Positions 5,915 through 57,502 of a stretch of DNA of 64,000 nucleotides are shown piece after piece (the first letter of the stretch is position 1; each line of letters starts with the position of its first letter). This DNA is from Micractinium sp. NFX-FRZ. Taxonomy: Eukaryota > Chlorophyta > Trebouxiophyceae > Chlorellales > Chlorellaceae. A model generated the notes under the pieces. The model had not been told where the DNA came from. It did no database searches and saw only the letters and a list, made by a program, of their open reading frames with translations. Location: assembly GCA_029339195.1 (NCBI GenBank), contig JAPTJF010000191.1:1-64000 (forward strand). The letters run 5' to 3'. Both the position numbers and the translations under genes were made by a program.

Positions 5915-8243
5915 TCACTTGGCCTCCTCCCCGCCCGCCACCAGGTCGCGTTCCACAATCTCCTGGATGACCTGCAGCATACAAACAGCATCAGGGGAGC
6001 AGGAAGCAAGGATGAAGGAGAGCAAAGAGGAAGCACAGAGGAAGCAGCAGGGGAGCAGGAGGGAAGCAGGCGGGAAGCAGGATGGGAGCAGGATGGGAGC
6101 AGGAGGGAGGCAAAAAGGAAACAGGATGGGAGCAGGAGGGAAGCAGGGGCGAGGAGGAAGGAGGGGTTGGAGGCGGGGGGACAGGGGGTGGTAGCGAGGC
6201 GGAGGCATGTGTGCACGGCATGATGTCGTCTGCAAGCCCTTCTCCCGGACACTGCTGAACGCACGCCGCCCAACCCCACCTGCCCGCCCCTCCACTCCTA
6301 CCTGCGCGGGCAGCAGGCCCTCCGTGCGCAGCGCCGGCTTGGAGGCATCCATGCCCACAAATATCAACGTGGGCAGGCCGTGAATCTGCGGGGCGGGCGG
6401 GTAGTAGGAAGGGAGGCGGCAAGCACGTGGTGGGCGGGGCCGGCGAGGGGCTGGAGCAAGGCGGGACGGCGCTTCGCCGGCTACCTGCCGTCCGTGCACA
6501 GCCCCCCGCCCGCCGCCCGCCCTGGCCACCACTTGTAGCATAACCCCCTGTGGACCAGCCAACCCAGGTGGCAGCTCCCGCCGCATGCCGATGTTTGAGC
6601 TGTGGCTCTGCTGCCCCAGGGGGACCCCGCTGCCTGACCGCCCAAGCCAGCTGCGTTGGCGGTGCCAGCCAGCTGCACGCAAAGGCCGGCCAAGCAGACC
6701 AGCGCGCACCTGCAGCTGCGTGCTGATGTCTGGGTTCTGGTCGGTGTCGATCTTCAGGATGCGCACCGCGTCGCCCATCTTCTCGGCCACCTGAGGGCCA
6801 CAAAAACAGGAAACAGAGAATAAGAAGAAGGGGGCATGCACTTGATCCTGCTGCACTCAGCCACCTGAGGGCCAGAAACAGGAAGCGGGGCTCATGCACG
6901 TAATTCTGGCCCCAAGTGGGAAGCCAGCAGCGCAGCTGGAACCACCAGCACGCGTGCCGCGTCGTGCACCCGAGGCACAGCGAGTCGGAGTATGCCATCA
7001 GGGGCTTCTAGATAAAACAAGACGTGGCCAGCAGCCAAGTGCCCACCGACTGAAGGCACCCAGCCTGCCATCCCACCCCACTGCCCACCCCCAGTGCCTC
7101 ACCGTCTCCAGCTCCTTGGCCAGCAGCACGCAAGGGCCGCACCTGCACACACACACACACACATGGTTGGGTGGGGGAAAGGAGGCACGCCAGCGTCCAT
7201 GTGGGTGCTGTGGTGGGTGCACAGCACAGCATGCCTGCCGCTCTGGCCGCCGGCGCGGCGCATTATGGCCGGGCAACGTGCAACTGTTGCGCTCCGCCCT
7301 GAGTAACGGTCATGTGGGTGCTGCATGGATGGGTGCTGCACTGGTGGGTGCTGACGCCAAACTCACCAGATGGCGTGCAAGCACAGGGCGGATAGCCGAG
7401 TGTGTGGGCTCCACCTGGGGGCAGTGAGGCTGACTAATCAAGAGGCTGCCAGCGACAGGCAGGCTCACCAGGTGGCGTAAAAGTCTATGATGAGGGGGCG
7501 GTCGCGCCCCAGGATCTCAGCCTCCAGCCCCTCGGCGTCCACCTGTCAGGCGGGATTGAACATACATGGAGGTGTGGGCAAAGGGAGGGGTGACGGGCGC
7601 GCGGCGGCGACGAGCGGCAGGGCGGTGGCGGCAGCGGCAGTGCGTGCAGTAGCACCGCCAACAGCACCGCCAACAGCACCGCCAACAGCGGTGCAGCAGT
7701 GGCAAACGAAGCAGCCTCCATCCAGGATGTCCCAACTCCTGCGCTCCCCCTCCTTCCTTCCTCCCTCCAACCTGCACGATCTGTACGAGCGAGAGCGGGC
7801 GGGGCACGGGGGTGGGGCAAGCGCAGGCGGGTGAGGTGCATGAGACAGGGGCAGGCATTGCGGCTGCCGTCAGGGCAGCACATGCAGGGAGGCGAACACC
7901 AGCAATGTGGTTTGCACTTGCCACAAGGTCTGGCACAGCAGCGGTGGCCTGCGAGGCGGCGGAGCACAGCAGCCAGCCAGCCGCTGCCGCACCCGTCGCC
8001 GCCCCGGCCTTTGCGGCAGCTTCTGCAACGCCTCCTCCAACACCACCCTTGCCCATCCGTCCACCCGCTCCTCACGTTGGCGTGTTTGCTAGCCTCAGCC
8101 CGTGCCGCTCGAGAGGAGCCCCGCCGCTGCTGCTGTGGCGTGATCAACGGCAGGCGGGTGAGCGGATGTTGCCGGGCAAGCGCTGGCTGCATGCGGGAGC
8201 CCACGGCACACCGCCTGAGGGTCCACGCAGCCTGAGGCTGCAT
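5915..8243 (-). CDS. CITRX: Plastid thioredoxin, CITRX/TRX-p type
   Basis: Thiol-disulfide oxidoreductase of the plastid, 167 residues. Exons (minus) are 8076-8243, 7469-7542, 7103-7142, 6710-6790, 6302-6385 and 5915-5971; lengths sum to 504 and all phases match. The ATG at 8243 starts a transit-peptide-like leader rich in Arg, Ser, Gln and Ala (MQPQAAWTLRRCAVGS). The mature domain runs PLIIDFYATW, CGPC (active site, with the Trp codon split by an intron), LLAKELETV, ILKIDTDQNPDISTQLQ, then HGLPTLIF with the conserved cis-Pro, and SKPALRTEGLLPAQ. The last motif and 'VLLAKELE' are characteristic of CITRX, distinguishing it from TRX m or f. In land plants CITRX (TRX p) supports plastid transcription via PEP-associated kinases; that role here is inference. 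It shares a short upstream region with the divergent WDR6 gene. Confidence 0.93.
6003..6180. repeat. Purine-rich minisatellite in thioredoxin intron
   Basis: The intron between the last two thioredoxin exons carries many imperfect copies of a 10-15-base unit (gggagcaggagggaagcagg and variants). The plus strand is almost entirely purine, and the sense transcript therefore pyrimidine-rich. Confidence 0.85.
6850..6890 (-). repeat. Exon-junction echo in thioredoxin intron
   Basis: The sequence cagccacctgagggccagaaacagg near 6858 repeats the acceptor junction of the exon ending at 6790 (cggccacctgagggccacaaaaacagg at 6784). The copy keeps the CAG acceptor and a few exon bases. It lies upstream of the true exon in gene orientation. 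Confidence 0.7.
7361..7386 (-). repeat. Echo of thioredoxin exon 2 donor
   Basis: The sequence ctcaccagatggcgtgcaag resembles the true exon 2 end and donor at 7463-7485 (gctcaccaggtggcgtaaaa). The match spans coding bases for the residues before the active site plus the GTGAG donor. Confidence 0.65.
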
Positions 8244-8481
8244 TGTGGCTGCGACCAGTAGCTGGGCCATGTCGGTCCGATTGTGGGACAACACACAGGG
8301 ATCCGAAACGGCGATCGGAGTTCTCCGCAAGTTCTCCGCAAGCGCCGATATGCGAGCTCGATATGCGGTGCATGCTTTGCCGAAGACTTGCGCACTGCCC
8401 ACCCCTAAACCTAGTCCTACAGTCTTATACAATCGGCACAGTGTCGGAAACACCGGGACAGGGCAGCAGCGCCCGTCAGGC
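8244..8481. promoter_or_regulatory. Divergent promoter region, thioredoxin / WDR6
   Basis: Only 238 bases separate the two proposed start codons, on opposite strands, so both promoters must overlap here. No TATA box is obvious. In-frame ATGs for WDR6 also occur at 8269 and 8350. If either is used, the shared region is even shorter. Confidence 0.55.
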
Positions 8482-11006: not shown

Positions 11007-11042
<36 letters not shown>

Positions 11043-17402: not shown

Positions 17403-20400
17403 CTACCCCTGCACGGCTGCCGGCGCCGCGCGTGCGGCAGTCGCGTTGGCGATTGCGTTGACGGCGGCGGACAGCTGCGGGGCGGGGCGGGCAGCAGGCG
17501 GCGGGCTGCCAGCGGATGTTTCCGTAGCGGTGGCGTTGGTGGGGGGCAGAGGGGGCGAGATCCAAGGGGTGACAGGCGGGGCGCCGGCGGTGGCGGGCTT
17601 CTCGCCAGGCTGCAGGCGCTCCGCCGACAGCAGCGCGGGCTGGCGGATGATGTATTCCTGGCGAGGACGGGCAAGGGGGAGGGGATGTATTATGTTTATT
17701 TCAGTCGAGTCAGTGTAGGCGCTTGGCTTGGAGCAGCACGGGCTGGCAGGCAACGTGATGCCGCGGCGGAAGCTCTTGGGGTGGAGCACGTCAACCATAG
17801 CAGGGTGGACACGCAGGCAGTGGCGGGTGTGCAGCCGGCCGGCAGGCCGGGATCCACAGCCGGAACAACGAAACAACCACACCAGCAGGTGTACAAATGA
17901 ATGCATGAGATGAGGGCTAATTAGGGTGGTTTACTGTAACAGCGCCAGAACAGCAGCAGCGCCAGCAGCAAGCGGGGCAGGGCGGCAGCCAGCCTGCCCT
18001 CACCTTTGCCAATTTGTTCAGGTCGCCGCTGGCTCCTCCCTCAAACCAGGCGAGGGTGGCGGCAGCATACTCCCCGATGATTTCGTGGTCTGCCCACGCC
18101 AAGTTGAGGAGCTCTGCAGGCGGGGGGCGAGGCGAGGCGAGGCGGGGCGTGGTGTGGGTTGGGATGGGCACGCGTATGACAGCGGTGGAGGGTCTGGGGG
18201 AGAGTGCGTGGGACAGGGGACGGGTTCGCCAGCACGGCGCAGGGTGCTTGCAGGGGTGGACAAGTGAGAGACTGATGCTGCCCTGTAGCTGGCGTGTGGC
18301 GGCACACGGCGGTGGGGTGCGCGAATGCGGTGCCGGGGGCCCGCACCCACTCCACGCCACCAAACCCCACCCCACCGCACACGGAACGTGCAAGAGGCAC
18401 CAGCACTCCACAACACCGCTGCCCTGAATGCAACTCAATGCAGTTCAACAACGACTGGTTGCCCGCCGACGTGAGATGTATGGAAGGGGGGCCGTCAGCA
18501 TAGCAACACCACTCCATGAATCCAGCTTCGTGTAAAAACAACAGCAACTAGTTGCCCACCCACCTGAGACGTGGGAGGCGTCAGGGTTCACGCTGCTGGC
18601 GGTGTCGTTGCCGCCCAGCTCCGGCACCCGCTTCTCCAGATCCGACTGCATCCACAGGACGGCATCGTGGAACGGAAAAGCGCGCGCTCAGCATGGACGT
18701 GCTCAGCATGGCGCGCTCAGCATGGACGTGCCAAATTCGCTCGCCAACTCATGTGCTGTGGTCATGCTGCGCCCATCCAACTGACACTGCCAACCAGCTC
18801 TGCCCGGCCCCGTTGCCGCCCTTCTTTCTACCACTCACCCGCCAGCTGATGCCAGGGAAGCCGTGGCGAGGGTCATCAGTCACATAGCCTAATGGGCCCA
18901 AGACGCCAATCTGCAAGGAGGGCGGTGAGGGGACATGCACATGTTGAAGCACACACACCTTTTGAAGCAGGGTTTGGGTCATGAGCCACGCGCCCGTGCC
19001 CGCCCGGAGCGTCGACCTGCAAGGGGGGCGGTGAGACAGTGACGCCAAGGCACAGCGACGCACGAATGGGGCCAGCAGTCGCATTAGCCCAGTAGGCCCA
19101 GGACGCCAATCTGCAGGGAGGGGGTGATGGGACATGCAACTCTTGGCGCACAGGCACAAAGGCGCACGGCGTTGGGCTAGCAGTCACAGGCGCGTGGTCC
19201 GCCAGAGAGGGCAACTTGCATGGAGGGTCACGAGTCACGCATACATGTGTGTGTTGACGTATGTTGAAGTATGATGAAGTATGTTGAAGTATGTATATTG
19301 AAGCGCACAGCTGTATGTTGAGGCGCACAGCTGTGGACGCAGGGTTTGGGTTGCCAGCCCTTTGACCTCGCATTTTCGCCCACGTTCAAGAGCTGCTGCC
19401 CCACGGCTCATTTCACAGCCTGCCAGTGCACCAACCGCCTTGCCCACCTGCCCCAGCGCTCGCCACGGCCCTGGCAGGCACGGCCAGCCCCACCAACACA
19501 CACGCTGCACCGGCCGCAAGCACTCGCACCGACCCACCCACCCACACCCACCAACCCAACCGCCCCTCGCGCACCTCCACCAATGCCGAAGTGATTTTGG
19601 CAGACAGCTGGGGGCTGATCTCTGCCGAGTGGTCCGAAAAGAAGGTGGGCCAGTAGACGACGCGGGGCACCACCTGAATTTGAGCAGCAGGGGAAGATGC
19701 GGGGGCGGGAGGGGGGATGCTAGGGATGACGTGGACACAGTATGCACAGGAAGGAGCGTCGGCTCTGGCGCTCCGGCCCGAGTGGGGCCCGGCCTGCTGG
19801 CCACTGCCCCGCCGCGGCACCGGCGCCGGCGCCGTGGGCCCGCTGAAGCAGCCGCTGGCGTGGTGGTTTGAGCGGGCACTTCCTACCTCGTGCCGCCACG
19901 CCTGGCTGCCACCATGCGCCCTCCCACCATCCCCTGCTCTACCTCCAGAGGCACCCACCCACCCACCCACCCACCCACCGTGATGGTCTGTGCGGGCACC
20001 CCAGCGTCCAGCAGCGCCGCCTGGTTCCGGGCAATGCGCTCGTTGGTGGGCGTGTCACGCTCCATTGAGATGAAGGCCACCGGCGGCCAGACGGACCACT
20101 GCAAGGGAAGGAAGGCAGCGCATGGGAAAGAGGGTAGATCAAGGCAGGGCGGGTTGGGTTGGGGGGGCACACATTGCTTGCTTCGACACGCCCATCCCAA
20201 CGCGCAGCGCGGCATGGCACAGGCATGCCATGGCACGGGCGGCTTTATGACCCCGACCCACCCCTTGCCCCGGTTTTCAGCCAGCCCCAAGCCCCTGCAT
20301 CACCACACACAACTACAACACGCTCCCATCCGCGTGCAGCCATCGTCCATCTCCGGATCCCACCCCACCACCACAGGCCTTGCCTCTAAGTGGCAGCCAC

Positions 20401-22843
20401 CCAAAGCACTCACATCGCAGTCTGATCTTTTGAATCCACTCCACCCCACCAACACAGGCCTTGCACAGTTGAGCAGCAATCCATCAGCACAGCGCCCCGC
20501 TCACATCATAATCGTCCTTCAAGGGGTCCACCGCCAGCACCTCGCTCGTGATCCCCGACACCGCCCCCTCGGGCAGCTCGTTGGGCAGCTTGAGCGCAAA
20601 GGCGGCGCCCGAGGAGACGCCGGCAAAGTAGAGGGGGGCATCCTGCGGGGGTGGCGAAACAGAGGAGGCACGAGGAATGAGGCACCAAGCAGGGCACGGC
20701 AAGGCAGCTCATCCGAGTCATGGGCCTGCTGGCAGCTGGCAGCCTGCAATGCGCAGGGGCGCGCAATAGTGGCGGCGAGGAGACGCAGGCAAGAGGGGAG
20801 AGCGGTGCAGGGGGTGGAGCTAGGGAGGCAGGTGGTGGCGTGGTGCAGGGTGGCGTGGGGTGCAACAGGGGCAGGGTGCGGAAGGGGCCGGGGTGGAGGT
20901 GGTGGGCCAGGGGTGAGGCGTGCAGGCAGATGGGCACTCGCAACGGACACACACAAATTCGTCCCAGGGCGGCACAGCACTTAGCACGGGTAGGGCGCAG
21001 CCCCTTGCCTCAGGCCCCCCGCCTCATCTCAGCGTGCAAATCATCACACCAACGCTTGCGGCCTGTGAGCAGGGCAGCCGCAAGCAAGACCGCGAGCAAA
21101 ACCGCAAGCAAGACTGCGAGCAGGACCGCATGCTCCAGGGGCCTGCCTGCCTCGCTACCAAACCCAGCATGCTTTCATGTGCTCCCGAATGTACAATGTA
21201 CATGTACAATGGGTTTAGGGTTTAAGGGTTTAGGGCTCTCTAATGTACAATGTACAATGTGCTCTCTAATGTACATGTCATGTGTGCTTCTGACTGCCCG
21301 CCTCACCTCCAGCCCCAGCTCAGAACGTAGCGACTGCAGCGCCTCCACCGCTGAATCCTTGTCCTCGCTATAGCTGCACACAAGAGACAGCGGGGAGTAG
21401 AGGAACAACGGGTGCACACACAAAGTGAATCGAAAAGGTGTATCACGCTTCACCGCTCGTCAAGCCAGTCCCCTCTGGCTCTGCCCACACGCAGGAGCAA
21501 CACCATGCGGGTGCGAGGCAGAAGCGAGGTCCACAGCGCAGCAATAATAGGTGCCGTGCTTCCACTCGTGCCATAGCTGCAGGGGCACACGTGGATGCAC
21601 GCTGTGCCACGCTCAGCGTGGCGCCACACCCAGCCCAGCCACGCCCAGCCCAGCCACACCCAGCCCAGCCACGCATTCGCTTTCAAAAGCCCGCCCGCCC
21701 CTCAAGCCCGCATCCAAGCCTCTCTACAGCAGTAGTCGTTCCCCGCGCACCCAACTGAGGCAGCGGTACGCCTCCTCGCCCCTTTCACAACAACCACACA
21801 TCCTGCCCGCCCCTTGAGCACGCATCCATGTTCCTCGCGCGCCCTCACCTGAAGCAGCGGTACGTCTCCTCGCTCGTGTCGTCGCTGCGGTCCAGAGAGT
21901 TGATGGCCACAAAGGCATAGCCCATGGAGAGGGCAACCTTGGTGTGTGCCACCTCGCCGGGCAGGCCTGGGGGACGGGCGGCAGTGGCAAGAAGGAAGGA
22001 GCAAATTTGTGATCGTGGGCTAGGGGGCGGGCAGCAGTGGCAAGAAGGAAGGAACAATGTGGAATATTGCTGCCCTGCCTTGCTGGCCCCCCAACCTGCG
22101 GCCGCCCAGTGCTGTGGCCTCCGCCTGCTCACCCACCCAGCCACCGGCACAGCCAACAGCATCGCCCACACAGCAGAATACCCTCTACATCACAACACAT
22201 GCCTGGCAGCGCGCCAGCAGACCCACCCACATGGCTACCAGCACACCGGCACGCCCATCAGCCACCCTGGCACCCCGTCCCCGCCCAGTGGAGCCCCTCA
22301 GCGCCTCCGCCAACCCCCGCCCCCACCTCGGCACTCCTCGCAGCCCGGCTGCTGCGGCCAGTGGTCGTACGCGTTGTGGGCGCAGCCGTGCCAGAACACA
22401 TACCTGCAGGGGGCCCAGCGGGGTGAGGGGCATGATGGACAAGTAGCAGTCAACGATTGGAAGCTGGGGGTTTGAACGCATGGGAAACGCCTCCGCCTAG
22501 GGGAAAGCAGGAGCAAGAACGATGAATGATGAACTCACATGCCCACTGGGTTCTGCGGCAACTCGTAGTACACTTCTCTTCCTGCAATGTCTTTCTTGGT
22601 GGGAGTCAGGAGCGGCTGGCCATCGGCATTCAGCCCTGGGGCCAGAGGGCCATCGCCGCCGCTGCTGCCGCCATCGCCGCCCTCGCCGCCGTCGGGAGAC
22701 GGCGAGGGTGAGGGCGACGGCGACTCTCCCTCCCCGTCAGCAGCTGCCGCACGTGGCAGCGTGTGGCACGCAGCAGCCACTAGTAGCAGTGCGAGCAGCA
22801 AACCGGCTGCGGGGCGGCCGCGGTGGGAGCTCGCCAGCGGCAT
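17403..22843 (-). CDS. Secreted alpha/beta-hydrolase (esterase/depolymerase-like)
   Basis: Predicted 480-residue secreted serine hydrolase. Exons (minus) are 22539-22843, 22327-22403, 21849-21966, 21307-21373, 20505-20642, 19979-20098, 19575-19673, 18839-18910, 18564-18645, 18004-18113 and 17403-17657; phases match throughout. The ATG at 22843 starts a signal peptide (GLLLALLLVAAACHTLP), followed by a Ser-Pro and Gly-Asp linker. The fold is shown by the oxyanion strand YVFWHGCAHNAYDHW, a nucleophile elbow GVSSGAA (GxSxG) in LYFAGVSSGAAFALKLP, a later strand VAFISMERD, and a candidate His in NPDASHVS or WADHEI. The HGCxHxxxDxW signature resembles plant and oomycete proteins annotated as alpha/beta-hydrolase or feruloyl/PHB-depolymerase-like. 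The substrate is not evident. The last exon encodes an Ala/Pro/Thr-rich tail. The long introns hold echoes of exons and telomere-like repeats. Confidence 0.88.
18881..19215 (-). repeat. Echo array of a hydrolase exon
   Basis: The acceptor edge of the exon ending at 18910 (gggcccaagacgccaatctg) recurs at about 19097-19113 as gcccaggacgccaatctgca, in the same orientation and with the CAG acceptor kept. Shorter pieces (acctgcaaggggggcggtga near 19016; gcaacttgcatggagggtca near 19208) suggest a ~100-200-bp unit duplicated more than once. Confidence 0.75.
21189..21282. repeat. Telomere-like TTTAGGG repeats flanked by AATGTACA words
   Basis: Positions 21211-21235 read as about three units of TTTAGGG, one with an extra A. 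Around them aatgtaca or its near-palindrome tgtacatgtaca occurs several times, including two copies of ctctctaatgtaca. The block lies inside a hydrolase intron, far from any visible chromosome end. Confidence 0.8.
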
Positions 22844-36391: not shown

Positions 36392-37006
36392 GGCTAGTTA
36401 CGCTCCGCGGCGGTCTGTGAGTGGGAAATAGGGCGACTGACGAAGACTGGGCGGCAGGGGCGTTCGGGTTGAGTCTCCCGCGGCCTGCATGCAGCCGATA
36501 CTTTCCAGCCGGCCGCTCGCGCCGCCAGCTGCACCCCTGGCCCTTGAGCACTGTCTAATCAGTATCAATGACAATGGATATTTACACAAACTCGGTGTAG
36601 ACGATGCAACTCAGGCAAATCTCGTGCTGCACTGTGTGAGGTCCAGCCAGATACGAGCGCCGACGCACGCTCCAGGCCCTCGGCACGCTGCGCTTGCAGG
36701 CACCGAGCCCCCCTACACTGGGCGCCCGACGCCCTCACTCCATCTTGCCTGAACCGGGAGAGCAACAGAGTACAACAACAGCACCACATCTTAGGACCAC
36801 GCGCCGGCAGCAGGGCACAAGCGCTGCAGTATCAGGCAAGGTGCGGGGCCCGTGAGACGGGCCAAAACATGTGCCACCCAGCCATCCAAAAAGCCCAGCC
36901 ATCCAAAACATGTGCCACCCAGCCATCCGGCCCCCTGCGCTCCCAGGCAGGTCCAGAACTGGCGCATGGCAGATGCACAGGAGCCTAACACAAAACCCTC
37001 GCCGCG
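36392..37006. other. Intergenic between COX7a-like 3 (3') and 2 (5')
   Basis: Contains two close copies of catgtgccacccagccatcc (36868-36929), a short local duplication, and a minus-strand TGTAA (ttaca near 36582). No gene is supported. Confidence 0.5.
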
Positions 37007-38104
37007 CTATTGCATGCCGCAGCTCTCACAGATGCCGAAGATCATGTGATACACGCCACGCACCACCAGAACTGCACCCACCGCGGTCAGCCCCAGTGGG
37101 ACGACCCGGGACAGGATCGCATCATGCGCGCCTGCGGCAGCAGAGCAGCCAGGGCAGAGGGCAGGGGGGCGGGGACAGCGGTGCTGTGGGGTGCAACCTC
37201 AAGTCGAGGTGGTATAAGACAGTGGCGCATGACGCGCACTTGCGGCAGAAGAGTGACAAGACCCGCGGGCGGGGCGGGGGAACTGGCTGGCGGGGCAGGG
37301 TCGGGTGAAACCTCACAACACAGATGCACACTCCACGAGGTGCTTCCAGCGGTGGCTTTTAGAGAGCATCGACACAGCCAGATGTAAGATGACGGCAATC
37401 CAGCGCACCTTTCTGGTGGACAAAACCCTTGGCCTTGGCCAGCTCCCGCTGCCGCTGCACAATCTTGTCCCACCCCTGCCAGGAAGGGGAGGGTGGAAGT
37501 GGGGAAGGGAAGCAGCGGGCAGGGGTGTTTAGTGGGCTGTGTGCTCCGAGTACAACCACACACGCAACACACAGAGAACATGGGAGGGCGCTTCATGGAA
37601 TTCACTGCAGATGGCAGGCAAAGGGGGGAAGGGAGGGAGAGGAGATGCCTGCCCTATGGCGCCCACAGGGTGCCTTTTGGCAGGGTGTGCGTGCCACGCA
37701 CAACCCCGCCACAGTGTGCTCGACATGCCTCCCAGCTCCGGGATGGGGCTGGAGTGGCTGCCTGGTATGGAAGTGGCATGGCTCGTTGACCGACAGTTGG
37801 GGCTAACAGGGCGTGGCTGGGGGCTTGCAGGATGGGTCACCACACCAACAATGCGTCAACGAGTGGGCGGGTAGGCGCGGGCGGGGAGCGGGCGGCGGGT
37901 GCCGCCGCCAGCGTTGCGGCTGCCGCTGCCCACACCTTGCAGGCTTGGGTGCGTCAGGAACGCAAACACAGTGCTGATCATGTTTGCCCAGGCCAACAAC
38001 AATCAAGGGTGCGGGCCTCTGCTGCTGCCGAGGCCTTCGGCCCAGTCGCCCTGCACCCCACCCACCTTGCCCCAATCCTTCTGCCACTCGGCTACGCTCG
38101 ACAT
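37007..38104 (-). CDS. COX7a-like small inner-membrane protein, paralogue 3
   Basis: Predicted 76-residue third paralogue. Exons (minus) are 38066-38104 (MSSVAEWQKDWGK, least certain), 37409-37475 and 37007-37131; sum 231 with matching phases. The body reads GWDKIVQRQRELAKAKGFVH then HDAILSRVVPLGLTAVGAVL, VVRGVYHMIFG and a distinctive Cys tail ICESCGMQ. It has diverged most: the tail carries a CxxC that the other two lack. The first exon is about 590 bases upstream and was chosen because its phase fits and its EWQKDWGK resembles EWAKGWPK of paralogue 1. An alternative first exon cannot be excluded. Confidence 0.72.
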
Positions 38105-41227: not shown

Positions 41228-44063
41228 TCAGACCTGTCCTGCGCGGCTGCTGCCCAACTGTGGCACCTCCTCACTCAAGGCAAGCCCCTGCTGCTGCTGC
41301 TGCCGCCGGTTCAAGCTGCCTTGATGCTGCTGCTGCGACGGAGGCTCCTGCCGGCAACCCAAGCTGCGCTGCTGCCCCTTTTTCTGTTCCGCCACTGCTG
41401 CCGCTTCTCGCGCAAGCTGCTGCACACGGGCCTCCCTGAGCTCTGCTGGCGGGTGTGAGTTGAGCAGCAACAGCACCGCCGCCGCCTGCACCGCTGGCGG
41501 CAGCCCTGCAAACCAGGCCACAGGCACGGCCCAGCCCAGCTGCTGCTGAAACGCTGCCTGCGGCGTCATTGCTGCCTGCTTCTGGCTTTGAGGTATATCG
41601 CTGCCAGGCTGGTGCAACTGGGGTTTTGAAGCTGCAAGCTGGAAAGCAGCTGGCTGGCTGCCAACGCTGCCTGAAGCAGACTGCATGGCGCTGCTGCCAC
41701 CACTGCTGCCTTCAAGATCGCCACTGCTGCTGCTGCCGCCATGAGCGCCGCCGCTGCTGCCACTCTTGCTGCTGAGGCTGCTGCTCCTGCCGCTGGCGCA
41801 GCCGCCGCCAGCCACCAGCGCCAAGTGCAGCAAGTGCAGCGTGTCTCGGGCATGCGCCAGGAAATCTGCTTCGCTTCCATCCCTGAGTTGCACCCGGATG
41901 TGCCATGCAGGAGTGGCGTCGTCCTGCAGGGCAAAGCGGTACCAGCGGAGGCATCTCTGATGTAGCGGCCCCCTTGCGCAGGCACGCGCCTGCCATGCTG
42001 GCGCCTCACTCGTGCACAGCCATGCGCATGCTTGACGTCCTTAATCTCGAGGAAAGAAAGAAATGGAAAGAGAACAACACAGGTTCTTGAAGGAATAAGG
42101 AGTGACCTTGCATGCGGCCCACCTGTGCAGGCCTAGAGTGCTCCAGGCGCCAGTGCGGTGCGCGCGCCTCCCCCGCCAGCAGCGCCAGCCCCTGCCCCCA
42201 CCTCTCAGGCGGCACCCCTGCATGCGCCAGCGCCCCGCAGGCGGCTGCATCCGCTTCATACTCCTGCTGCCTGCGCGCGATGCAGGGAAGCGGATGGCAG
42301 GTGCTTCAGCGTGGTCAACACCAGGAGCTGTGGCTGTGGACGGCGTCTGATGCCTCTACCCCTGCTGACTGCACCCAGAGCAAGTGCGCAAGGAGCGGCT
42401 GGGTCGCAAGGATCCCGGTGCCTGTATCCCGGCAGGCTGGGCTGCAGTCGCGCTGGAACACTTGGGGGGTTGTCGTTGTTGTTGCAGGCGGTCAGTGGGG
42501 CGCTCTCCCACCTGCTGCATGTGGTGTGGGCAGCGGGACACCTGTGGGCAGGAGGGTTGACTACACAGGGCAAGTACCACCCCGGCAGCGGCCCAACTCA
42601 CCAATCCAGCTGCTGCAGCGCGCGAGCCAGCCTCAGCCTTTCAGCCATCTCAGACTCGTGTCCTGCGGCCGCCAGATGCTCCCAGCTGGGCACCAGACCC
42701 CCCTGCCAGGCGGCGGCAGCGGCGCCTCGCAGCCAGGCGGCGTGTGTGCGCCAGAAGGAGTCGAGCCGCCAGGCTAGCAGCGCCAGCCGCTTCTCCTCCT
42801 GGGGTTGCATAGGGGCATGGAGAACGAGAGGCAAGTGAGGGACAGGGAGGTGGGCAGGCCACAAGTGTGTCCGGCGCCAGGCCAGCAGAGCCTGCCACTT
42901 CCGCTCCTGTGAAAGGGGTGGTGGGCAGTGGGTCGGTGAGAATGTTTGGGTGGGAGGCGGGCAGGCATGCGGTCGTGCGGTGTGCTTCTGGGGAGTTTGG
43001 ACATGGTGGGCCAACAGCTGGCAAGCATAAACAGGCGCTCCAAACAGGCTAATGAGAACCCCACTGCCTGGAGCAGGAGCCTCACATCCCCCCCTTGGCA
43101 GTCCCGCTACATACGGCACCCCTCTTCAGTATGGCAATCATGGCACCCGCTTGCCGCACGTGCATCCCCGCCTGACACACAAACTCACCACGTGCCGTGC
43201 CGCCAGGTGGCCCGCCTCATGAGCCAACAAGTACAGGAGAGCAACTTCGGGGGCGGCTGTCTGCTCCCAGCATGCCTGCACCGTACCGCTGCTCAGCAGC
43301 ACGGTGCTGGCGCCGGCGGCGCAGCAGAGGAAGCGGTCGGATGGGACGACATCAATAAAGAGGCCCAGGGCGGGGCCGCTTGTGTGCGCCGCCAGCGCCC
43401 CCACAGCCTGCTGTGCCGCCTCTAACACAGCTTGCTGGCGGGCGGGGGGCAGGAAGGTGGAATTTGGTGCAGGCTCGGGTGTCTGGGTGGGGCCCGGCTG
43501 CAGTGGGGTGGCTGAAGCAGCAGGAGAGAAGCTGACCTCTGCCTGGCCTGCTGGAGGCGTGGGCAGCCGCTGCTCGCCCCACTGCGCAGGGAGCGGATGC
43601 CAGGAAGTGGTGGCGAGGCAATGTGTGACGGGTTGCATGCGCGAGGTGCGCTGCGGCCCTTGGCAGACTTGCACACAGGCGTGGAGGTGGTGGGCAGGTG
43701 GACATCTGAGCAGGCAGGGGACACCAACCGGCGGCCTGTGGAGGGTGCATGCCAACATGCCCCCTAGCTTGCCCTGCAATGCAATACATGGCATGTCTCT
43801 AAATTGGTGCCCGGCAACTGAAGCATTACCTGCTGCACGAAATGTGAGGCATGGGCTGGGTGGGCGCGTGCCAGCTGCACGCCCGTTGGCTTCAGCGGCT
43901 CCGGCGCCAGCCAGGCGGGCGGGAGCGGCAGGCGGGAGCGCCGGCGGCCGCTAGCAGTGACGGCGCCGCACTCCTCCTGCCCATGAAAGCTCCAGAACAG
44001 TGCGGCGCTTGCTGCGCCAGCTGCACTCGCCAGCCAGCCGCTCGCAAGGGCGCCGCGCAGCAT
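41228..44063 (-). CDS. OMA1: OMA1-like M48 metalloprotease
   Basis: Zinc metallopeptidase of family M48, 528 residues, most like OMA1, the mitochondrial inner-membrane stress protease. Exons (minus) are 43830-44063, 43189-43434, 42602-42798, 42123-42270 and 41228-41989; phases match, sum 1587. The N terminus (GWLASAAGAASAALFWSFHG) is a targeting leader or membrane span. QAVGALAAHTSGPALGLFID then VPSDRFLCCAAGASTVLLSSG leads to the zinc motif HEAGH (about residue 150) in YLLAHEAGHLAARHV, and the third ligand is the Glu of QQEYEADAAACGALA (about 230). OMA1 family members read the same way (HE.aH...rH; then E.eAD). The 254-codon last exon adds a C-terminal Ser/Gly/Gln-rich extension of about 200 residues that usual OMA1 lacks. 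It shares an upstream region with the divergent CNNM gene. Confidence 0.88.
42860..42912 (-). repeat. Echo of protease exon 3
   Basis: On the minus strand this stretch would read ERKWQALLAWRR, a near copy of EEKRLALLAWRL at the start of the true exon 3 (42780-42798), and it keeps a CAG acceptor. It lies between exon 2 and exon 3. If spliced in, it would shift or duplicate the helix after the zinc motif. Confidence 0.85.
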
Positions 44064-45692: not shown

Positions 45693-45723
<31 letters not shown>

Positions 45724-48700
45724 CTTGCCTCCCTGCTGGAAACCCAACCACCCGCCTGCCCCCCATGCCCTCCCTCCCTCCCTGTAGGGTTGACCTGGAG
45801 GTTGCCAAGCGCACGGGCAACGACAAGCAGCGCTGGCTGGTGGCGCGGGTGGAGCCTTTCACAAAAGACCCTCATTACGTGATGTGGGTGCAGTGACGCT
45901 CGCAGAGCATGGCCATTGGCTTGCCTGCCTGGGCATTGGCAGCCTCGTCTCTAGAGTGGTTCTGTCAATGTCAACAGTGCACCGGGCAGCGGCTGCATGT
46001 GCCTGCACTGGGTTGACATGCTCCCAAGCTGGGTGGATGCCCCTTTGCCGCTGCCTGTGGGGCAGCGCTGCCGGCGTGCGAGTGCACGCAGCAGGCGCCC
46101 GCTTGGCATTGCTCGCCTGACTGCTGTGCCTCCTGTCCCACTGCCGCACGTTCAGGTGTGCGCTGGTCGTGGTGAATGCAGCCTGCAACACAGCACTGCC
46201 GCTGTTCATTGACAGGTCGGTGTTGTGCTGCTGTCTGCCTGCTGTGTGTTGAGGGGCTGGGTGTGAAGAGTCCCATGGCGGATGCCGCACGCACACAAAA
46301 CCAGACATCTGTTCATGGACAGATGACAAGAGGGGGTGCATGTGACTGTGTTGGCGGGTGTGGTGCTGGTCCCGCCGCCTGCACTACTGCCTGCAGTTCG
46401 CTATGCAATTGCCCCTTGCCCTCGATCCACAGCCGGATGCTTGTGGCTGTGCGAATGCTCAACAGGACGGAGCGGGTGCCAGCATCAGCACTTGCCGCCC
46501 TCCTTGCTGCACTTCCGGTGCCTGTCTGTCTGCACACATGCCCTGCCCCCCGCCTCGTGCACCCTCCCGTGCCCTTTCTTACCCTTCGCCCTGCATGCCA
46601 CTGCCTCCCGCAGGCTGCTCAACCCGTTGGCCGCCATCCTCATTTCGGTCACCGCCGTCCTGCTGTTTGCTGAGATCGCGCCTCAGGTGGGGTGGGGTGG
46701 GTGGTGTGTGTGTGTGGGCGAGCAGATGGGGGTGGAGTTGAGGCAGGGGCAAGCATGTCACTTTCCCGTTGGCTTTGCAACCCCATGTCTTTGGGCTGCA
46801 ATTTTGTTGCTTGCTTTGTTTTCGTCTGTGGAGCATTCACACCTGGGAGGCAGGGACAGGTCGGGAATGGGGAGATGAGCGGGCCCGCTGTCCGCCCATG
46901 TCGGCGGGGCGCTGTGGCTGCTACCACCAGCATGGCTGCCACGCTGCTGTGCAGCTGTTGTGCACACACTGCTGCTGCTGCTGCGCCGCTGCCGTGCAGG
47001 CGGTGTGCAAGCGGTACGGCCTGGAGATTGGTGCGTACTGCTCCTGGCTGGTGCGCGCCCTCATGCTGCTCACCTTCCCCATATCCTGGCCCCTGGGCAA
47101 GCTGCTGGACTGGTGAGGCGGGCAGACACAGGGTTGTAGTTTCTCATCATGCCTGCATTCTTTCTTGCGGCCATCCGTGTGTGCTTAAGTGTGTGAGTGT
47201 GCAACATAGCCCCCAGCCAGCTGCTTGGCTGGTGCAGGGGCAGGTGGTGTGGGCCGAGGAGAGCGTGCCGCTCATTCCTGTGCCACGCCGTGACAACGCG
47301 CCTCATGCTGTGCCCTGCTGTGCTCTGCTGCTGCGCAGGCTGCTGGGCGAGGAGAGCGTGCTGTTCAGGCGGCAGGAGCTGTCGGCGCTAGTGGGCCTGC
47401 ATGCGGAGACGCAGCAGGACGGGTCAGGTGCGGGGGCGGGGCACCCAAGAGCCTGAGGCGGGGGCGGGGGCTGGGTGGATGGGCGCATGGTTGGGGTGTG
47501 TGTGTGTCACATTGTGCGCTAGCAACCTGTGCTGTGCAGTTCCCGATGGTGCAGGGCGCTGTGCTGCCCGCGGTGGCAGCTGCCGGGCCCGCCTACCATG
47601 CACTCCCGCTCTGCCACGACGTGCAACCAACCGCTCGCCGCCCACTTGCCACCCCGACGCATGTATCCGCTCTTCTGCTGTCTGCCCCTGCAGTGGGCGC
47701 GCTGACCAGCGACGAAGTGCAGGTGGGGCCCGGTGCAGAGGGAGGCTGGTTAGGAGGGCCACTCGTGCACCTCACATTGCCCCCCCCTGCGGCAGTGCCC
47801 AGCGCGCCAAGCGCAGCACGCTCCTTCTGCTCTAGATGCCTCGTGGGTCCAGCCGAGTGGTGGCCTGCAGTGCTGGGTTACACACCATTGCAAACCCCAA
47901 TAAATTCAACTGTGTGTCACGGTCTGCGTGCGTGTGTGTGTGTGCCCCCTGCTGCTGCATAGGCTGTGACAAACCAGACCAACACCAATTGGAACCGCGT
48001 GTTGCTCTGTGTGTGTGTGTGTGCCCCCTGCTGCCGCAGGTGATCCAGGGCGCCCTAGACATGGCCAGCAAGACGGCGGGCGGGGTGATGACTCCCCTGG
48101 GCAAGGTGGGTCCCATTGATTGGACTCATGTTTGTGTGTTTCTCTGTGGCTTTGCGGGCCGCACGGGTGGCGGGCGAAGCGGGGACCCTTTGTTGGGGCG
48201 GCATGCCGTCGTCCGATGCTGTGACGATGAAGCAGCTGCTGGCAGCCTCGCCCTGCCCCTCCCTCCTCCGTGCTGCCCAGCGTTCCCACGCTGCAGCTGG
48301 CCATGATGCAGGTCCCCACGCTGTGGTCATGACCTCCTGTGACGCCGTCATCACCCGACTTCCAGCCTCACGGCAATGCTTCCGCCCTGTCCCCACCTAC
48401 CCCCGCCTGCTGCACCGCAGGTGTTTATGATCTCCGGCGACGCCGTCATCAGCAAGCAGCTGCTGGCGGAGGTGATCCAGGCGGGGCACAGCCGCGTGCC
48501 GGTGTACGAGGGGGACAATCGACAGGTGGGGACAAACTCCTGCTAGTTTGCTTTTGCCTTTCCCCCGTCGAGCAGCCTGCTTGTCCCGAGGACAAGCGGA
48601 ACGTTTGTGTGTGTGGGTGTGTGTGGGTGTGGAAAAGGGTGCATGCATGGGCGGGTGTCCCGGCAGCTGGCAGCGAGGGTGTTTTGAGCCCACGCCCCAC

Positions 48701-51675
48701 CAGCGCAGGCAACCCCGGCGCCGCCGCGTGCTCTTGCTTGGCGTGGTGCCCAGCCCAGCCCTCTCCCCTGCTAACTTGTAACTTTCTAAACTTCCTAAGT
48801 CGCCTCCCCGCCCCCTGCAGGTCAGCGTGGCATCGCGTCCTGGTGTGTGCACAGGAGCCCGTCGCGAGCTCAGCCCTCTCCCCTGCTGATTAACATTGCC
48901 TTGCACGGAATGTCACCCCCCGCAGGCCATCCTTGGCCTGATCATGGTGAAGGAGCTGGTGTCCAGCCCAGCCCCCTCCCCTGCTAAAATTGCCTTTGCA
49001 TTACCTTTCCATTAAGACACGTGTAATTTCACCCCGCCCCCCTGCAGGCCATCCTGGGCCTGATCTTGGTGAAAGAGCTGGTGTCCAGCCCAGCCCCCTC
49101 CCCTGCTACCATTAACTTTGCAATACCTTTCCATTAAGACACGTGGAATGTCACCCCGCCCCCCTGCAGGCCATCCTGGGCCTGATCCTGGTGACCGAGC
49201 TGGTGCTGGTGTGCACAGGGTTTGCTGGCTTACCTTCAACTTACATATAAACATAACAATGTACCCCTCCCGCCCCCCGCAGGCCATCCTGGGCCTGGCC
49301 CTGGTGACGGAGCCGGTGTCCAGCCCAGCCCCCTCCCCTGCTAACATTGCCTTCGCATTACCTTTACATTCACACGTGTAACGTCCCCCTCCCCTTCTGC
49401 AGGCCATCCTGGGCCTGATCCTGGTAAAGGAGCTGGTGCTGGTGGACGAGACGGCTGGGGTGCGCGTTAGGGAGCTGCGCCTGCGGGAGATGCCCTTCCT
49501 GCGCGCTGACATCCCGCTGTATGACGTGCTCAAGGTGAGAAGTGGACGCCGGGCTGGGGAGCGGGAGGAGGGATGTCGGCCGGCCGGCAGCAGGCCGCAT
49601 CACACCCCGCCCCACCCTGGCCTTCTGCCCTGGCTTGTCCTGCCTTGCCCCAACCACATCCCACATCAACAGGCAGGCTCCCCACATTGCCCACGCCGTC
49701 CCACCCCCACCCGCCCACCCGTGCCCGCAGATCTTCCGCTTTGGCCGGCGCCACATGGCCTGCCTCACCCGCGTGGCGGCGCCCGACGCCTCCACCGGCG
49801 GCGGCAGCGTCGGCAAGGGGGCCTCCCCGCTGCGCCTGAACAACATCTTCAGGCGCCCCTCCCCCGCATTGCAAACCCTGGGAGACCGGCAGGTGGGTGC
49901 TGGGGTTGAGCGCCTCGCGCTGCCTGCCTCCGCCTGGCGGCGCCCTGCATACCTCGCCGTCAGAGCAGCCGGTGTATGTGCGCGCTAGTTTGGCGTGCAG
50001 GTGCAGGGGCGGAGGGTATCCTCCCATGCAGCCTGTCTTACTTGCCTGTGCTTGCTTCCCTTCAATCATAGTGAGTCATTCGCCCTCGACCTGGCCTGTG
50101 CAGGTGGAGGAGGTGGTGGGCATCATCACGATTGAGGACGTGCTGGAGGAGCTGCTGCAGGTGGGGGCGTGGCTGCCTGGTACTTCCTGGCGTTGCATTG
50201 GCGTTGCATTGCATTGCATTGCTGACATGTTCGTTGCTTATGGGAGGGCGGGGAAGGGTGAGGCGGGTAAGACGCGCTTGTGCAGCTGCTGCAGGTGGGG
50301 TGACCACAGCTGTGCTTCTGCAAAGCAAGTTAGTTTGCCATTTTTGTTGTGGCGGACGGTGTACGCACGAGGCAGATTGTGTTGACTGCGGCCAGTGCCG
50401 CCGTTTGACATGTTGCATGTCTGACCGTGCACCTACCCCCTGTACCGCAGGCGGAGATTGTTGACGAGACGGACCAGTGGGAGGACAATGAGCAGACGGT
50501 GCATGTAGCACCTCAGGTGCGTGTGACTCTGGGGCGGGAGCCTGGGGTGCGCTCCCAATCGCCGTGTACCACTACCGGAGCATGCCAGGGCATGAGGCTG
50601 AAGCAGCCGAACCTCCCCAGGCCAGGAAGGCAGTGCGGCATCGCTGCTGCGCAGAGCAATGCGCAGCGAGCCTGGGCAGGGCAGCGCTGGCTGGGGTTGC
50701 CTGCCTGCCTGCCTGCCTGCCTGCACGTCACCCTGGGGCCGCCACCCTTGCAACCTCCCTGCGCCTCCCCCGCAGGTGCCGCTCAAGGAGCTGCCCCCCA
50801 ACCTGCGCCGCTTCCTCTCCCCCCGCCGCTCCATGCACGGCCTGGCCCTGGATGCCAGCCTGGGCGCACACAGCGTTGTCGAGTTCACCCGACTGTCAGT
50901 CGATGGGGACGACGCGGCCGCCGACGCCGATGCCGCCGCTGCCGCTGGCGGGCAGGCTGTATCGATGGCGGCGGCTGGCCGGCAGCAGCAGCATCCACAA
51001 CAGCAGCAGCAGCAGCAGCCACAGAACGGGGCGGGGCAGCTGCAGCCCAACGGGCAGTTGATTGGCCAGCCGAATGGGCAGCTGAACGGCGTCGGGGGCG
51101 ACAGCGTGGGCAGCGGTGCGGGTGGTGCCGTGACCTCCCCTCCCCGCCGCGCCCCCTCACCCTCCATGGGAGCCGCTGCGGCTGCCAGCGCCCTCACCGT
51201 GGCAGGCGGCCCCTCCAGTGGAGACCCCACAGCCATGGCGGCAGCACTGGCTGCCGGGGTGCGGGCGGCCGAGCTCAATCGGTCTGGCAGCCCAGCAGGC
51301 ACAGCGGGGCCGGGCAGCCCCAGCCCGCGGCGCCCGCCGCTGCCGCGCGGCCCCTCGGGCGCCGCGATCGCCGCCGCCCCCGCGTCAAACAGCCGGCTGA
51401 GCGGGAATGGGGGCGGGAGCACAGGCGCACCCAGCCCCGCCCCCAACCCCGCTGCCCCTCCTTACCCCGCTGGTAGCGGCGGCGCCGTGGCCGGCTCCGG
51501 GCAGCAGGTGGCGCCAGCGCCAGCGCCAGCGCCAGGGGCAGTGCCTGATCAGTATGTTACTGTTGAGCTGGGGGAGATGGCCAGCTGGACGACCAGCGAG
51601 GATGGGGAGGCGGAGGCGGCGCACGCGCAGCGGCCTCTGGTGAGGCCGGGCAGCCGCAACTCGGGGGTGTCCTGA
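45012..51675 (+). CDS. CNNM-type DUF21-CBS metal transporter
   Basis: Membrane protein of the CNNM/CorC family (Mg2+ or other divalent cation transport), 741 residues. Exons are 45012-45254, 45499-45533, 45788-45883, 46156-46215, 46614-46686, 47000-47112, 47339-47427, 47694-47722, 48040-48105, 48421-48525, 49403-49534, 49731-49892, 50104-50160, 50451-50516 and 50776-51675; phases match, sum 2226. A leader ([20 protein letters not shown]) precedes the DUF21 domain with spans [56 protein letters not shown] and [37 protein letters not shown] is the conserved loop. The CBS pair follows: [46 protein letters not shown] and [18 protein letters not shown]. The last exon adds a disordered Gly/Ala/Pro tail. 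Closest known relatives are plant DUF21-CBS proteins. TGTAA is at 52128-52132. Confidence 0.95.
47251..47273 (+). repeat. Echo of CNNM exon 7 start
   Basis: The sequence gggccgaggagagcgtgccg resembles gggcgaggagagcgtgctgt at 47344 in the true exon. The preceding gcaggggcaggtggtgt may be the decayed acceptor region. Confidence 0.75.
48206..48362 (+). repeat. Two echoes of CNNM exon 10
   Basis: Positions 48215-48247 (gatgctgtgacgatgaagca then gctgctggcagcc) and 48327-48360 (tcatgacctcctgtgacgcc then gtcatcacccgact) each resemble a different part of the true exon at 48427-48470 (tatgatctccggcgacgccg; gtcatcagcaagcagctgct). Both are frame-disrupted. Confidence 0.85.
48766..49402 (+). repeat. Four-plus-copy ~120-bp array of CNNM exon 11 start
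   Basis: Copies of gcaggccatcctgggcctga begin at about 48923, 49045, 49167 and 49280, before the true exon at 49403; spacing is 122, 122, 113 and 120 bases. Each carries a pyrimidine tract, an intact CAG acceptor and codons for AILGLI-V-EL-V, then runs into intron-like sequence (ccagcccagccccctcccct) with an in-frame stop. A more decayed unit starts near 48766-48900. Only the last copy continues into [11 protein letters not shown] and the rest of the gene. Confidence 0.95.
50270..50302 (+). repeat. Echo of CNNM exon 13 end and donor
   Basis: The sequence gcagctgctgcaggtggggt repeats the exon 13 junction gagctgctgcaggtgggggc (50149-50168), keeping the donor. The copy is short. Confidence 0.6.
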
Positions 51676-54265: not shown

Positions 54266-57200
54266 ATGGCGGTTGTGGCAGCGCTGCGGCCACTCGGGGA
54301 GGGCCTGCCTTCGCTTGTGCAGGGCCTGGCGCGCGCCTGCGCGGCATCCACAAGCACATGGCTACCTTCTGGAGGACTGCAGGGCAGCGCCACGCCGCAG
54401 GCGCGCACGTACGCCGCGGCTGCGGCGGCGGGCGGCAGGGGAGCAGCAGCAGCAGGCGGCGGCGGAGGGGCCGCCGGCTTGGCCATACCTGGCGTGAACC
54501 ACATCATTGCTGTTGCCTCTGGCAAGGGCGGCGTCGGCAAGAGCACCACCGCGGGTAAGGGACTGTCTCAACACATTGTTTAGGTTGGGGCACAGCAGAT
54601 GCTGGCTAGCAATCACCTCACCCCTTGAGACGCCGTCGGCGGACCTGCCTTTTGCGTTGGCAGCACCCAGTGCCTCCCTCCCTGCGCTCCTTGCGCTGCA
54701 ACAGCTCCCCCCCAACCTACCCCACCTCTATCACTCCTCACATCCCGTCCCTCTCCCCCTCCCCCTCCCCCCATCTCTCCCTCCACCACCCCCCTCCCCC
54801 CATCCTTCCCCAGTGAACCTTGCGGTGGCGCTGTCCCGCCGGCTGGGCCTGCGCGTGGGTCTGATGGATGCCGACGTGTACGGCCCCTCCATCCACAGGA
54901 TGATGAGCGTGTCGGGCAAGCCGCGGGTGGACGAGGGTGAGCCGGCGTGGCGTGGGCGCCTTGCTGGCGCAGGTGCCGTGCCCGCGGGGCTGGCGGGTGC
55001 TGGTGTCTTGCGTCTGCCAGGTGGCAGCGTGGTGCGAGCGTGCCGGGCACCCTGCGGGTGGGCCAAGCTGAGGAGCGCACATGCTTTGAGGCAGCAGGGG
55101 GGCAAGGACGGGAGGGCGCTCCTGGCTGTCCCCCCTGTGGCTGTGGCCCAGGCAGCTGCTGAGGATGTGTCGGTGGCGCCTGTGGGTGGGGTGAAGCCTG
55201 TGGGGACGGAAGGGTGAGGGCATGGGAGGGCAGGGGAGGGGAGGGGCCCAAGTCTGCCCCACCACCCTGCCTCTCTGGTCCTGACGCCACGCCGCTCCCC
55301 CCTGCGTGCGCCCCCTCACCCGCCCTGCCCTCATGCAGACGAGAAGATGATCCCGCCGGTCAGCTACGGTGTGTCTTGCATGTCCATGGGGCTGCTGATG
55401 GACGAAGACGTGGCTGCTGTGTGGCGGGGGCCCATGGTGGGTGTGTGTTCCCCCAAATGCAGCGTGCATGCGGCTGCGGTTGAGGGCGGGCTCTCGCGTG
55501 TTGCCGCATCTGTCATCCAGCCCATTGCTGTTGTGTTTGCTTGTGGGCCTGCCGATGAATGGGGACGTGGCGGCGGTGTGGCGGGGGCCCATGGTGAGCG
55601 CTCTGCATGCTGTGGTTGACTTGTGGGTTGGTTTGTTGGTAAGGTAAAGGTAAATTCAGGGGAGATTGGCCTCAGCTATCCCCCGTTGGCCTGCATGGTC
55701 GTGCTGTGCACGCTATGCCATCGTCTCACGCTGTGCCTGCTGCGCCTCTCCTCCACGCCACTCTCACTCACACAAACGGGTCACGCCTGCGCTGGAGGCC
55801 CTCATGCCGCGCATGCTGTGCCCCGTGTGTTTGACTGTATGGCCTGATGGCGCGTTACAAGTTGGGGGCACTGCCGCCCACTTCATGCTGTGCATGCTGT
55901 GCTTCCGCCAGGTCATGTCTGCACTGGAGACATTCATGCGCCGCGTGCGCTGGGCCCCGCTGGACGTGCTCGTCATCGACATGCCCCCCGGCACAGGCAA
56001 GGGGCGGGGCGTTGTAGCGGGGCGTTGTAGCGGGGCTGGTTGGTTTGCTGTTGAATGGGCGCCGCCAGCACCCCTGGGCCTCCGCTGGATGTGCCGGTCT
56101 TTGCCAGGCCGCCAGGCACCTGTGTGAGGCCTGGTGTGGGCACGGGGGCGGGCGGGAGACGGGCGGCGGGGGGAGGAGCCCGCGGCGCTTGCTGGCGGGC
56201 CCCGCCCTGCTGCTGACCGTTGTGCCTACCGCTGTCAGGCAAGCCACTCCGGCGGTCCGTGCGTACCGTCCCGCTTGCACCGCGCTACCTCGCTGCTGGG
56301 CCAACTGCCGGGCAACGACCAGTCCTGTGCGCCTGCCTGTGCTGCCCGGCCTGCAGGCGATGCCCAGCTGAGCATCAGCCAGCGGCTGAGCCTGTCGGGA
56401 GCCGTGATTGTGACCACGCCCCAGGTGTGTAACGATTTGCTGGCAAAGCAGCAGCCAACACGCCTGCCTCAGGGCCTGCGGGGCCACGGTGTGTGGTGAG
56501 CCTGTTCGGGGGCCGTGGTTGACTGGCTCCACCCCGGTACAGGTGCGCATATGGTTACCAATTCCCTGCTGTGAAACTGTGGCTGGAGAGGTTGTCTGGG
56601 TGCCTGTGGGGTAAGGGTGCGTGAAGAACCTGCCAGGGCGCCGCACTTGCGCCCACGTGCTGCAGCTGTGTGGAGCGTGCAGCACAGTGTGCTGGGCTGG
56701 CAGGGCGGAGTGCAGTGCAGGCAGCCCCTGCCATCCGCCTCCCCTTCCCTGCCATCACTGAACAAGAGGTACCCGCTCCCTGTTCCCCATTGGCAATATG
56801 TTCACACACGCACACACACACACACGCACACACACATAACAAAACAAGTGCTGCCTCCTGCCCCATGCGCTGTGCAGGACATTGCGCTGCTGGATGCGCG
56901 GCGCGGGTGCACCATGTTCCGGAAAGTGAACGTGCCCATCCTGGGTGGGTGGTTCAGTGCCAGCGTGCTTCCGTGTGGTTGGCGTTGGGTGTGTGTTGCC
57001 ACTCGGATCGCCAGGCGTTTGCGCCATGTCATGCTGCAGAGCGCACCTCCCCACACTGGGAGCGCGCATGTGGGTGTCTTGCGGTGGGTTACCACACCGT
57101 GCGCTTGCCAGCCTCGGCCGAGGGGGCGCCAGTGCACCGCGCCTGTGCTGCCGTGCCGATGCGCCTCCGGTCGGCCGTAGAAGAAACGAGCCTGGCACGC

Positions 57201-57502
57201 GGCAGACGAGCAGAGCAAGGGCTTTGGTCCCCTGAGCTCACTGCAGCGCACCTCCCAAGGTGGCAGGATCACAGGATCACAGGATCACATGTCGGCTGCA
57301 TTGAGTTCCATGGGTGCGTAGTCAGTAGTCGAATGCCTCTGACCTCCCCACCTTTGAATGCATCCCACCCGTCCCTGAGCTGAGCACACAAGCGAGCACA
57401 GTTGCCTCCTGGGCCATGCGCTGCAGGCATCTGTGAGAACATGAGCTGGTTTGTGTGCGGCAACTGCGGCCACGAGTCGCACATATTTGGGCAGGGTGCG
57501 CG

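Follow-up and report, generated by a model that had tools for sequence, protein, structure and literature searches.

Intronic echoes of adjoining exon edges in Micractinium sp. NFX-FRZ probably derive from small tandem duplications across splice junctions

Introduction

A 64,000-nucleotide stretch of the Micractinium sp. NFX-FRZ genome (contig JAPTJF010000191.1, positions 1 to 64,000; hereafter the window) raises the question of how decayed copies of exon edges came to lie inside the introns that adjoin them. A sequence-only reading of the window had proposed that introns of several unrelated genes carry same-orientation copies, or echoes, of the neighbouring exon edge, and that these arise by repeated local tandem duplications spanning exon-intron junctions. 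We followed up this proposal in the window and in a sample of the genome outside it. In the open-access literature searched (titles and abstract starts), no report of exon-edge echoes at such density was found, and one described tandem duplication across a single intron-exon boundary was found, in potato (PMC4974935). Published systems are compared below on the basis of partial texts of the cited sources.

Materials and methods

The sample outside the window comprised 24 stretches of 10 kb (240 kb) from the 66.07-Mb, 838-contig genome, on contigs picked non-randomly, by number. Echoes were called on gene models from a self-trained HMM gene finder, trained on the window and sample sequences alone. 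The models gave a donor consensus near CAG/GTGRG and an acceptor consensus of TGCAG, with a median exon of 102 bp and a median intron of 250 bp; neighbouring genes were joined in places, and some echoes were called as exons. In one sample stretch (L010:2182-5144), a methyltransferase gene model contains a repeated peptide motif, probably an echo misread as an exon.

Seven window proteins were submitted to Pfam, and five had hits: thioredoxin/NHL; 2OG oxygenase (P4H) joined with SpoU/TrmH methylase; M48 peptidase; CNNM/CBS; and NUBPL/IND1. The other two of the seven, the hydrolase and its neighbour, had no Pfam hits. All seven sample proteins, picked from genes carrying echoes, had hits.

At score ≥18, 167 unique repeats were obtained, of which the 58 of the exon-intron class were counted as echoes. 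Repeats of the intron-intron (51), intergenic (3), exon-exon (28) and mixed-label (27) classes were left uncounted, and some of the mixed-label repeats resemble echoes. Four CNNM mini-exons were reassigned by hand to the intron prior to counting.

Results

Echoes of exon edges across the sampled genome

An annotation-free scan of the window at spacings of 20-1000 bp (score ≥18) returned 101 direct matches, against 8.5 expected from far diagonals, and 6 inverted ones. Under stricter low-complexity masking at the same spacings and cut-off, the window yielded 62 direct, 2 inverted and 1 locally shuffled match, and the 240-kb sample yielded 171, 1 and 1, respectively. The sequence-only reading had suggested comparing exon edges with their own introns against shuffled pairs; this comparison gave 49/1043 matches for true pairs and 12/10,430 for shuffled ones (score ≥18), an enrichment of about 40 fold. 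At the same score, no match was found for antisense exon edges (0/1043) or for wrong-side exon edges against the intron (0/498; testable exons ≥110 bp only). These results confirm that intron echoes of adjoining exon edges are real and are found across the sampled genome, with direct copies far exceeding inverted and shuffled ones in window and sample alike, as the initial description of same-orientation copies held.

That chance, low complexity or assembly error produced the echoes is scarcely credible. The genome, at about 65% GC and with many CAG-type runs, is of a kind that could favour spurious matches, but the masked, shuffled, antisense and far-diagonal controls all speak against such an origin. 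Copies made by an assembly error should be about 100% identical, whereas junction echoes spaced 60-200 bp from their source share 68-86% identity with it.

With the cut-off at score ≥16, an echo was present in 62/556 introns (~11%, one in nine) and in 29/67 genes. The window was somewhat richer in echo-bearing introns (17/111) than the stretches elsewhere (45/445), although not significantly so (P = 0.13).

Echoes in the genes of the window

Of the 92 unique echo events at score ≥16, 30 lay in the window: seven in the P4H gene, six in CNNM, five in the TrmH-like gene, four in IND1, three in thioredoxin/NHL (all of score 17), one each in the hydrolase and the protease, and three in a minus-strand model beside the hydrolase (Table 1). 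The earlier description of six or more echoes in P4H, and of echoes in the protease, hydrolase and thioredoxin genes, was borne out. Echoes were likewise present in IND1, where four were counted instead of the three described. For the TrmH-like gene, about eight had been proposed; the five at the cut-off came near this figure without quite reaching it, and the alignments show further copies. In CNNM, a four-copy array and at least four other echoes had been described, and we recovered the array and two others at the cut-off, again close to the description without quite reaching it, and one more at 50268, part of which was modelled by the HMM as a 9-bp exon. Each copy in the CNNM array aligns with the true junction over 36-42 bases of exon and 14-32 of intron, and two decayed stretches of the array unit lie near the array.

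Table 1. Positions of echoes and their sources in the window
Feature	Position	Strand	Details
CNNM intron array, four acceptor-bearing copies of the exon 5' edge	48926..49315	+	Copies start at 48926, 49048, 49170, 49283
True CNNM exon, source of the array	49403..49534	+	HMM model; segment single-copy in CNNM4 alignment
CNNM acceptor-edge echo	48322..48353	+	98 bp upstream of source 48420-48451
CNNM second, weaker echo of exon at 48420-48451	48214..48243	+	224 bp upstream; score 16
CNNM donor-edge echo	50268..50300	+	134 bp downstream of source 50134-50166
P4H acceptor-edge echo	24739..24807	+	Of exon starting 24866; spacing 104
P4H, two acceptor-edge echoes	25830..25945	+	Of exon starting 25996; 25830-25867, spacing 173; 25877-25945, spacing 77, 42 intron and 27 exon bases
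P4H intron with four echoes	26645..26847	+	Upstream exon at 26645, 26723; downstream exon at 26782, 26819
TrmH-like 47-bp array (2.5 copies) and a further copy	28420..28582	+	Carries donor after 28421
TrmH-like intron, several copies	29124..29429	+	Exon end before 29064, its donor or first intron bases; spacings 97, 255, 266, 361
IND1/NUBPL donor-edge echo	55034..55072	+	Spacing 131
IND1 donor-edge echo	55544..55596	+	Spacing 157; 85% over 53 bp
IND1 acceptor-edge echo	55776..55816	+	Spacing 132
IND1 echo of upstream exon's end	56076..56119	+	Spacing 125
M48-like protease acceptor-edge echo	42858..42909	-	Spacing 108
Hydrolase donor-edge echo	21741..21786	-	Spacing 94
Copies of the 18870-18958 exon edge with adjoining bases	18976..19157	-	Spacings 106, 199, 200; part of one modelled as exon 19084-19110 in hydrolase model
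Thioredoxin gene, weak donor-edge echo	6555..6605	-	Spacing 135; score 17
Thioredoxin/NHL acceptor-side echo	3763..3795	-	Spacing 109-110

Three other features of the window were observed. The contig begins with 75 G (positions 1-75), probably a contig-end artefact. A 305-base N run (59647-59951) lies between similar alanine-rich coding blocks (59297-59648 and 60339-60673), and a tandem duplication may lie concealed in this gap or may have caused it. On the minus strand, 33342-38104 contains three small, similar gene models (62, 73 and 73 aa) with a fourth, dissimilar one among them, perhaps a tandem gene family.

Side, spacing and intron-side extension of the echoes

The junction lay inside the match in 40/58 of the stricter events and outside it in the remaining 18. 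In those 40, acceptor-edge echoes lay upstream and donor-edge echoes downstream at 38/41 junctions (the side rule). As the wrong-side comparison (0/498) shows, an exon edge is echoed in the adjoining intron and is absent from the one across the exon. Spacing, taken as the unit, was 80-160 bp in 49/67 events and 40-200 bp in 58/67. The junction was reached by 44/67 echo events; among these, 26/44 (0.59) showed intron-side similarity of score ≥6, compared with 36/301 shifted controls, and 18/44 scored below 6 on the intron side. The statement that echoes normally include the acceptor or donor and some intron bases thus holds loosely, for the junction in 40/58 and for intron bases in 26/44.

We simulated both a tandem unit and an exon-edge-only insertion, with parameters set by hand (unit ~110 bp, indel share 0.15). 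When a tandem unit was aged to the exon identity seen in the echoes (0.83), the extension was 0.56, whereas exon-edge-only insertion gave 0.12. The tandem simulation was imperfect, with an overall score of 27.5 against 21.5 observed and the junction reached in 0.81 against 44/67, and slightly more decay lowered its intron-side extension to 0.34. The observed extension is nearer the tandem model, which it favours over exon-only insertion. Tandem arrays were also found at junctions, with periods of 122 bp (4.4 copies, CNNM) and 47 bp in the window and of 47, 52 and 60 bp in the sample. Exact abutting of copies was seen in these TRF arrays and is favoured by the simulated extension, most old echoes being too worn to read.

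Comparison with insertion and intron-gain models

Templated insertion, in which exon-edge pieces are copied into a nearby intron break by SDSA or a polymerase-theta type of repair, would give non-tandem copies. Nearby repair-mediated duplicates are known in vertebrates, and the partial text of that survey (PMC2671141) describes local duplications by which exons and splice sites can end up as copies in introns, as here. Some echoes, such as IND1 55544, end within a few bases of the junction, and the 18/44 without intron-side similarity would also suit such a route. However, the intron-side extension, the lack of wrong-flank echoes (0/498) and the rarity of inverted copies (3 in total vs 233 direct, score ≥18) all argue against it. 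The vertebrate survey, in the same partial text, excluded copies within 50 bp of each other, had a mean separation of 1.2 kb and included one exon copy that was inverted, unlike the copies here, which are direct and mostly 80-160 bp apart. Exon-edge-only templated insertion was dropped as the main route (extension 0.12 simulated vs 0.59 observed), and we consider templated insertion quite unlikely overall.

Intron gain by duplication of an exonic AGGT segment (the Rogers model), in which the echo would mark the intron's own origin, likewise yields introns resembling neighbouring exons (PMC3443670, partial text). In that review and in the Drosophila study PMC2891723, again from partial text, tandem duplication leaves exon-like sequence in introns, as here. 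The model predicts a spacing equal to intron length, which was found within 10 bp in 2/67 events, both with spacings exceeding the modelled intron. Unlike the introns of those reports, the echoes lie about one unit from the copied junction, and only 6/67 begin 6 bp or less from the far splice site. AGGT intron gain was dropped on the spacing result and appears highly improbable.

Among 556 introns (154,290 pairs, 304 kb examined), four short cross-locus matches were found (E<1e-4). An introner origin was dropped on this basis, in agreement with the earlier argument against introner insertion.

Coding status and decoy splice sites

Mismatch rates by codon position in the echoes were 0.146, 0.191 and 0.198, a slight difference (chi-square P = 0.012) with the first position lowest. 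The second codon position is the most constrained in coding DNA. Because second positions are unspared and spacing does not fall in threes (modulo 3, 21/19/18), the echoes look non-coding, and a coding function was dropped. No echo residues appeared in the printed PDB alignments of P4H (2jig), CNNM4 (9y9f) and the iron-sulfur carrier (8zkc), the CNNM query having been built without the echo mini-exons. Nothing points to a coding role.

If some echoes were functional alternative mini-exons, the CNNM array, with four copies open in frame, would be an example. The HMM called its copies (48926-49315) as in-frame exons of 33-39 bp, and among echoes with clear intron-side similarity, to which this count was confined, 9/12 acceptor and 4/6 donor decoys outscored the lowest tenth of modelled real sites. 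The codon-position and spacing results point the other way, as does the fact that structurally characterised CNNM proteins have the segment once, and we hold this explanation to be very unlikely.

The splice dinucleotides were kept in 19/24 acceptors (AG) and 15/21 donors (GT/GC), about as expected of two bases at 78% identity or slightly above. Decoy splice dinucleotides persist, in line with the earlier claim.

Junction excess, unit size and age

Among pairs at 70-170 bp, 41 crossed a junction and 18 were intron-internal, compared with a ratio of 0.87:1 in a neutral frozen-exon simulation (P = 0.0006), and intergenic DNA held 0 such pairs against about 5 expected (P = 0.02). In a matched query test, from which introns <90 bp were excluded, matches were obtained for 44/838 exon edges, 24/895 intron-internal and 4/435 intergenic queries; the gap between the first two, ~1.5-2 fold, is such as a conserved partner could give. 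Units of 40-80 bp numbered 5 against 30 at 80-120 bp, below a detection-corrected flat density (P = 0.003). The exon parts, measured with the same exclusion of introns <90 bp, were short, with a median of 45.5 (n = 34) against 57-62 under a random placement simulation; perhaps longer decoy exons get recognised.

The excess of junction-crossing pairs over the simulated ratio, the paucity of such pairs in intergenic DNA and the narrow unit size would suit a junction-targeted process, with breaks or nicks commoner at exon-intron boundaries, for example via chromatin or transcription. However, the like-for-like test gave roughly what a conserved partner alone could give, and intron-internal duplications of equal size exist (18 at 60-200 bp). 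We regard such targeting as unlikely, and extend the same doubt to duplications aimed by a junction- or exon-chromatin-linked process in ~105-bp units, as an older pulse since slowed.

Identity of ≥87% was seen in 0/45 junction echoes at 60-200 bp, where a steady process predicts 23%. Constant-rate duplication continuing to the present was rejected on this count, unless the assembly collapses young copies. Near-identical copies may indeed have been collapsed in assembly, and excluding divergence <5% removes most of the age conflict (P = 0.04). Younger copies occur outside the 60-200 bp junction class, namely a 90% pair within the CNNM array and the 47-60 bp junction arrays. In one sample stretch (L004:2803-2917), a 47-bp, 2.4-copy, 100% identical array overlaps an exon edge; this array arose recently, which means that duplication has not died out altogether for smaller units.

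Contribution of echoes to intron length

Local repeats (spacing 40-300 bp) cover at least 6222/171,715 intron bases (3.6%), a lower bound because decay hides older copies. In exons they cover 4169/95,063 bases (4.4%), with sources and coding repeats included. Introns with an echo were longer than those without (median 345 vs 238.5 bp, n = 62 vs 494, P = 7e-6), by about one unit. This extra length is suggestive of lengthening and is partly a target-size effect. That introns in this genome grow chiefly by echo duplication is not supported, recognisable repeats making up the above share of intron bases.

Discussion

We consider it highly probable that the echoes are small head-to-tail duplications, mostly of 80-160 bp, across one splice junction. 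Their orientation, the side rule, the unit-sized spacing, the arrays and the intron-side extension agree with the recurrent local tandem duplication across junctions put forward by the sequence-only reading. Such a duplication would probably begin with the repair of two nearby opposite-strand nicks, by patch repair with end joining if that pathway operates in this organism. Where the unit spans one junction, splicing would be expected to continue at the copy beside the intact exon, that is, at the 3'-most acceptor or the 5'-most donor, and the protein would be unchanged because the intact exon keeps its own splice site. The other copy, consisting of exon edge and splice site, would fall inside the intron, presumably at little cost, and would decay to a recognisable echo one unit from its source, while repeated rounds would give arrays such as that in CNNM. 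Most duplications confined to exons, or covering an entire exon, would be lost. This selective filter by itself yields the side rule. The echoes are thus well explained by a known mutational process and neutral survival; the process looks ordinary, and what is notable is how many echoes there are and that their size varies rather little around 100 bp.

Patch-repair tandem duplications have end-joining junctions with little end homology, and the original work on the patch-mediated, or adjacent-nick, small tandem duplications of rice is said to be that of Vaughn and Bennetzen in 2014. A later rice source (PMC7971508, partial text) gives an enrichment of small tandem duplications at 50-200 bp and a tandem share that drops beyond 125 bp. 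The echoes resemble the rice duplications in being head-to-tail and close together (80-160 bp in 49/67), and differ from those in the same text in being old, decayed and located in introns and at junctions, with units <80 bp depleted. The comparison is limited in that echo breakpoints here are too worn to place their ends or read end homology. In potato, one RdRp gene gained a new, spliced intron through a tandem duplication that spans an intron-exon boundary; the repeated segment takes in the 3' portion of an intron and the 5' portion of the exon that follows, together with the splice signals, as in the echoes (PMC4974935, partial text). Unlike that single case, the dozens of cases here seem to lengthen existing introns. 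An experimental route to small tandem duplications is offered by CST/Pol alpha-primase at breaks with 3' overhangs (PMC8355091, partial text); that system used Cas9 nickases in mouse embryonic stem cells. The earlier remark that no named mechanism predicts echoes at such density is not upheld, given that small tandem duplication by nearby-nick repair fits them (PMC7971508 and the potato case PMC4974935, as far as their partial texts go).

With echoes in about 11% of introns, the size, age and fate of junction duplications can be measured in this genome. Echoes mislead gene finders, several having been called as exons by the HMM. They leave decoy splice sites, and they are raw material for intron lengthening, mini-exons and new introns.
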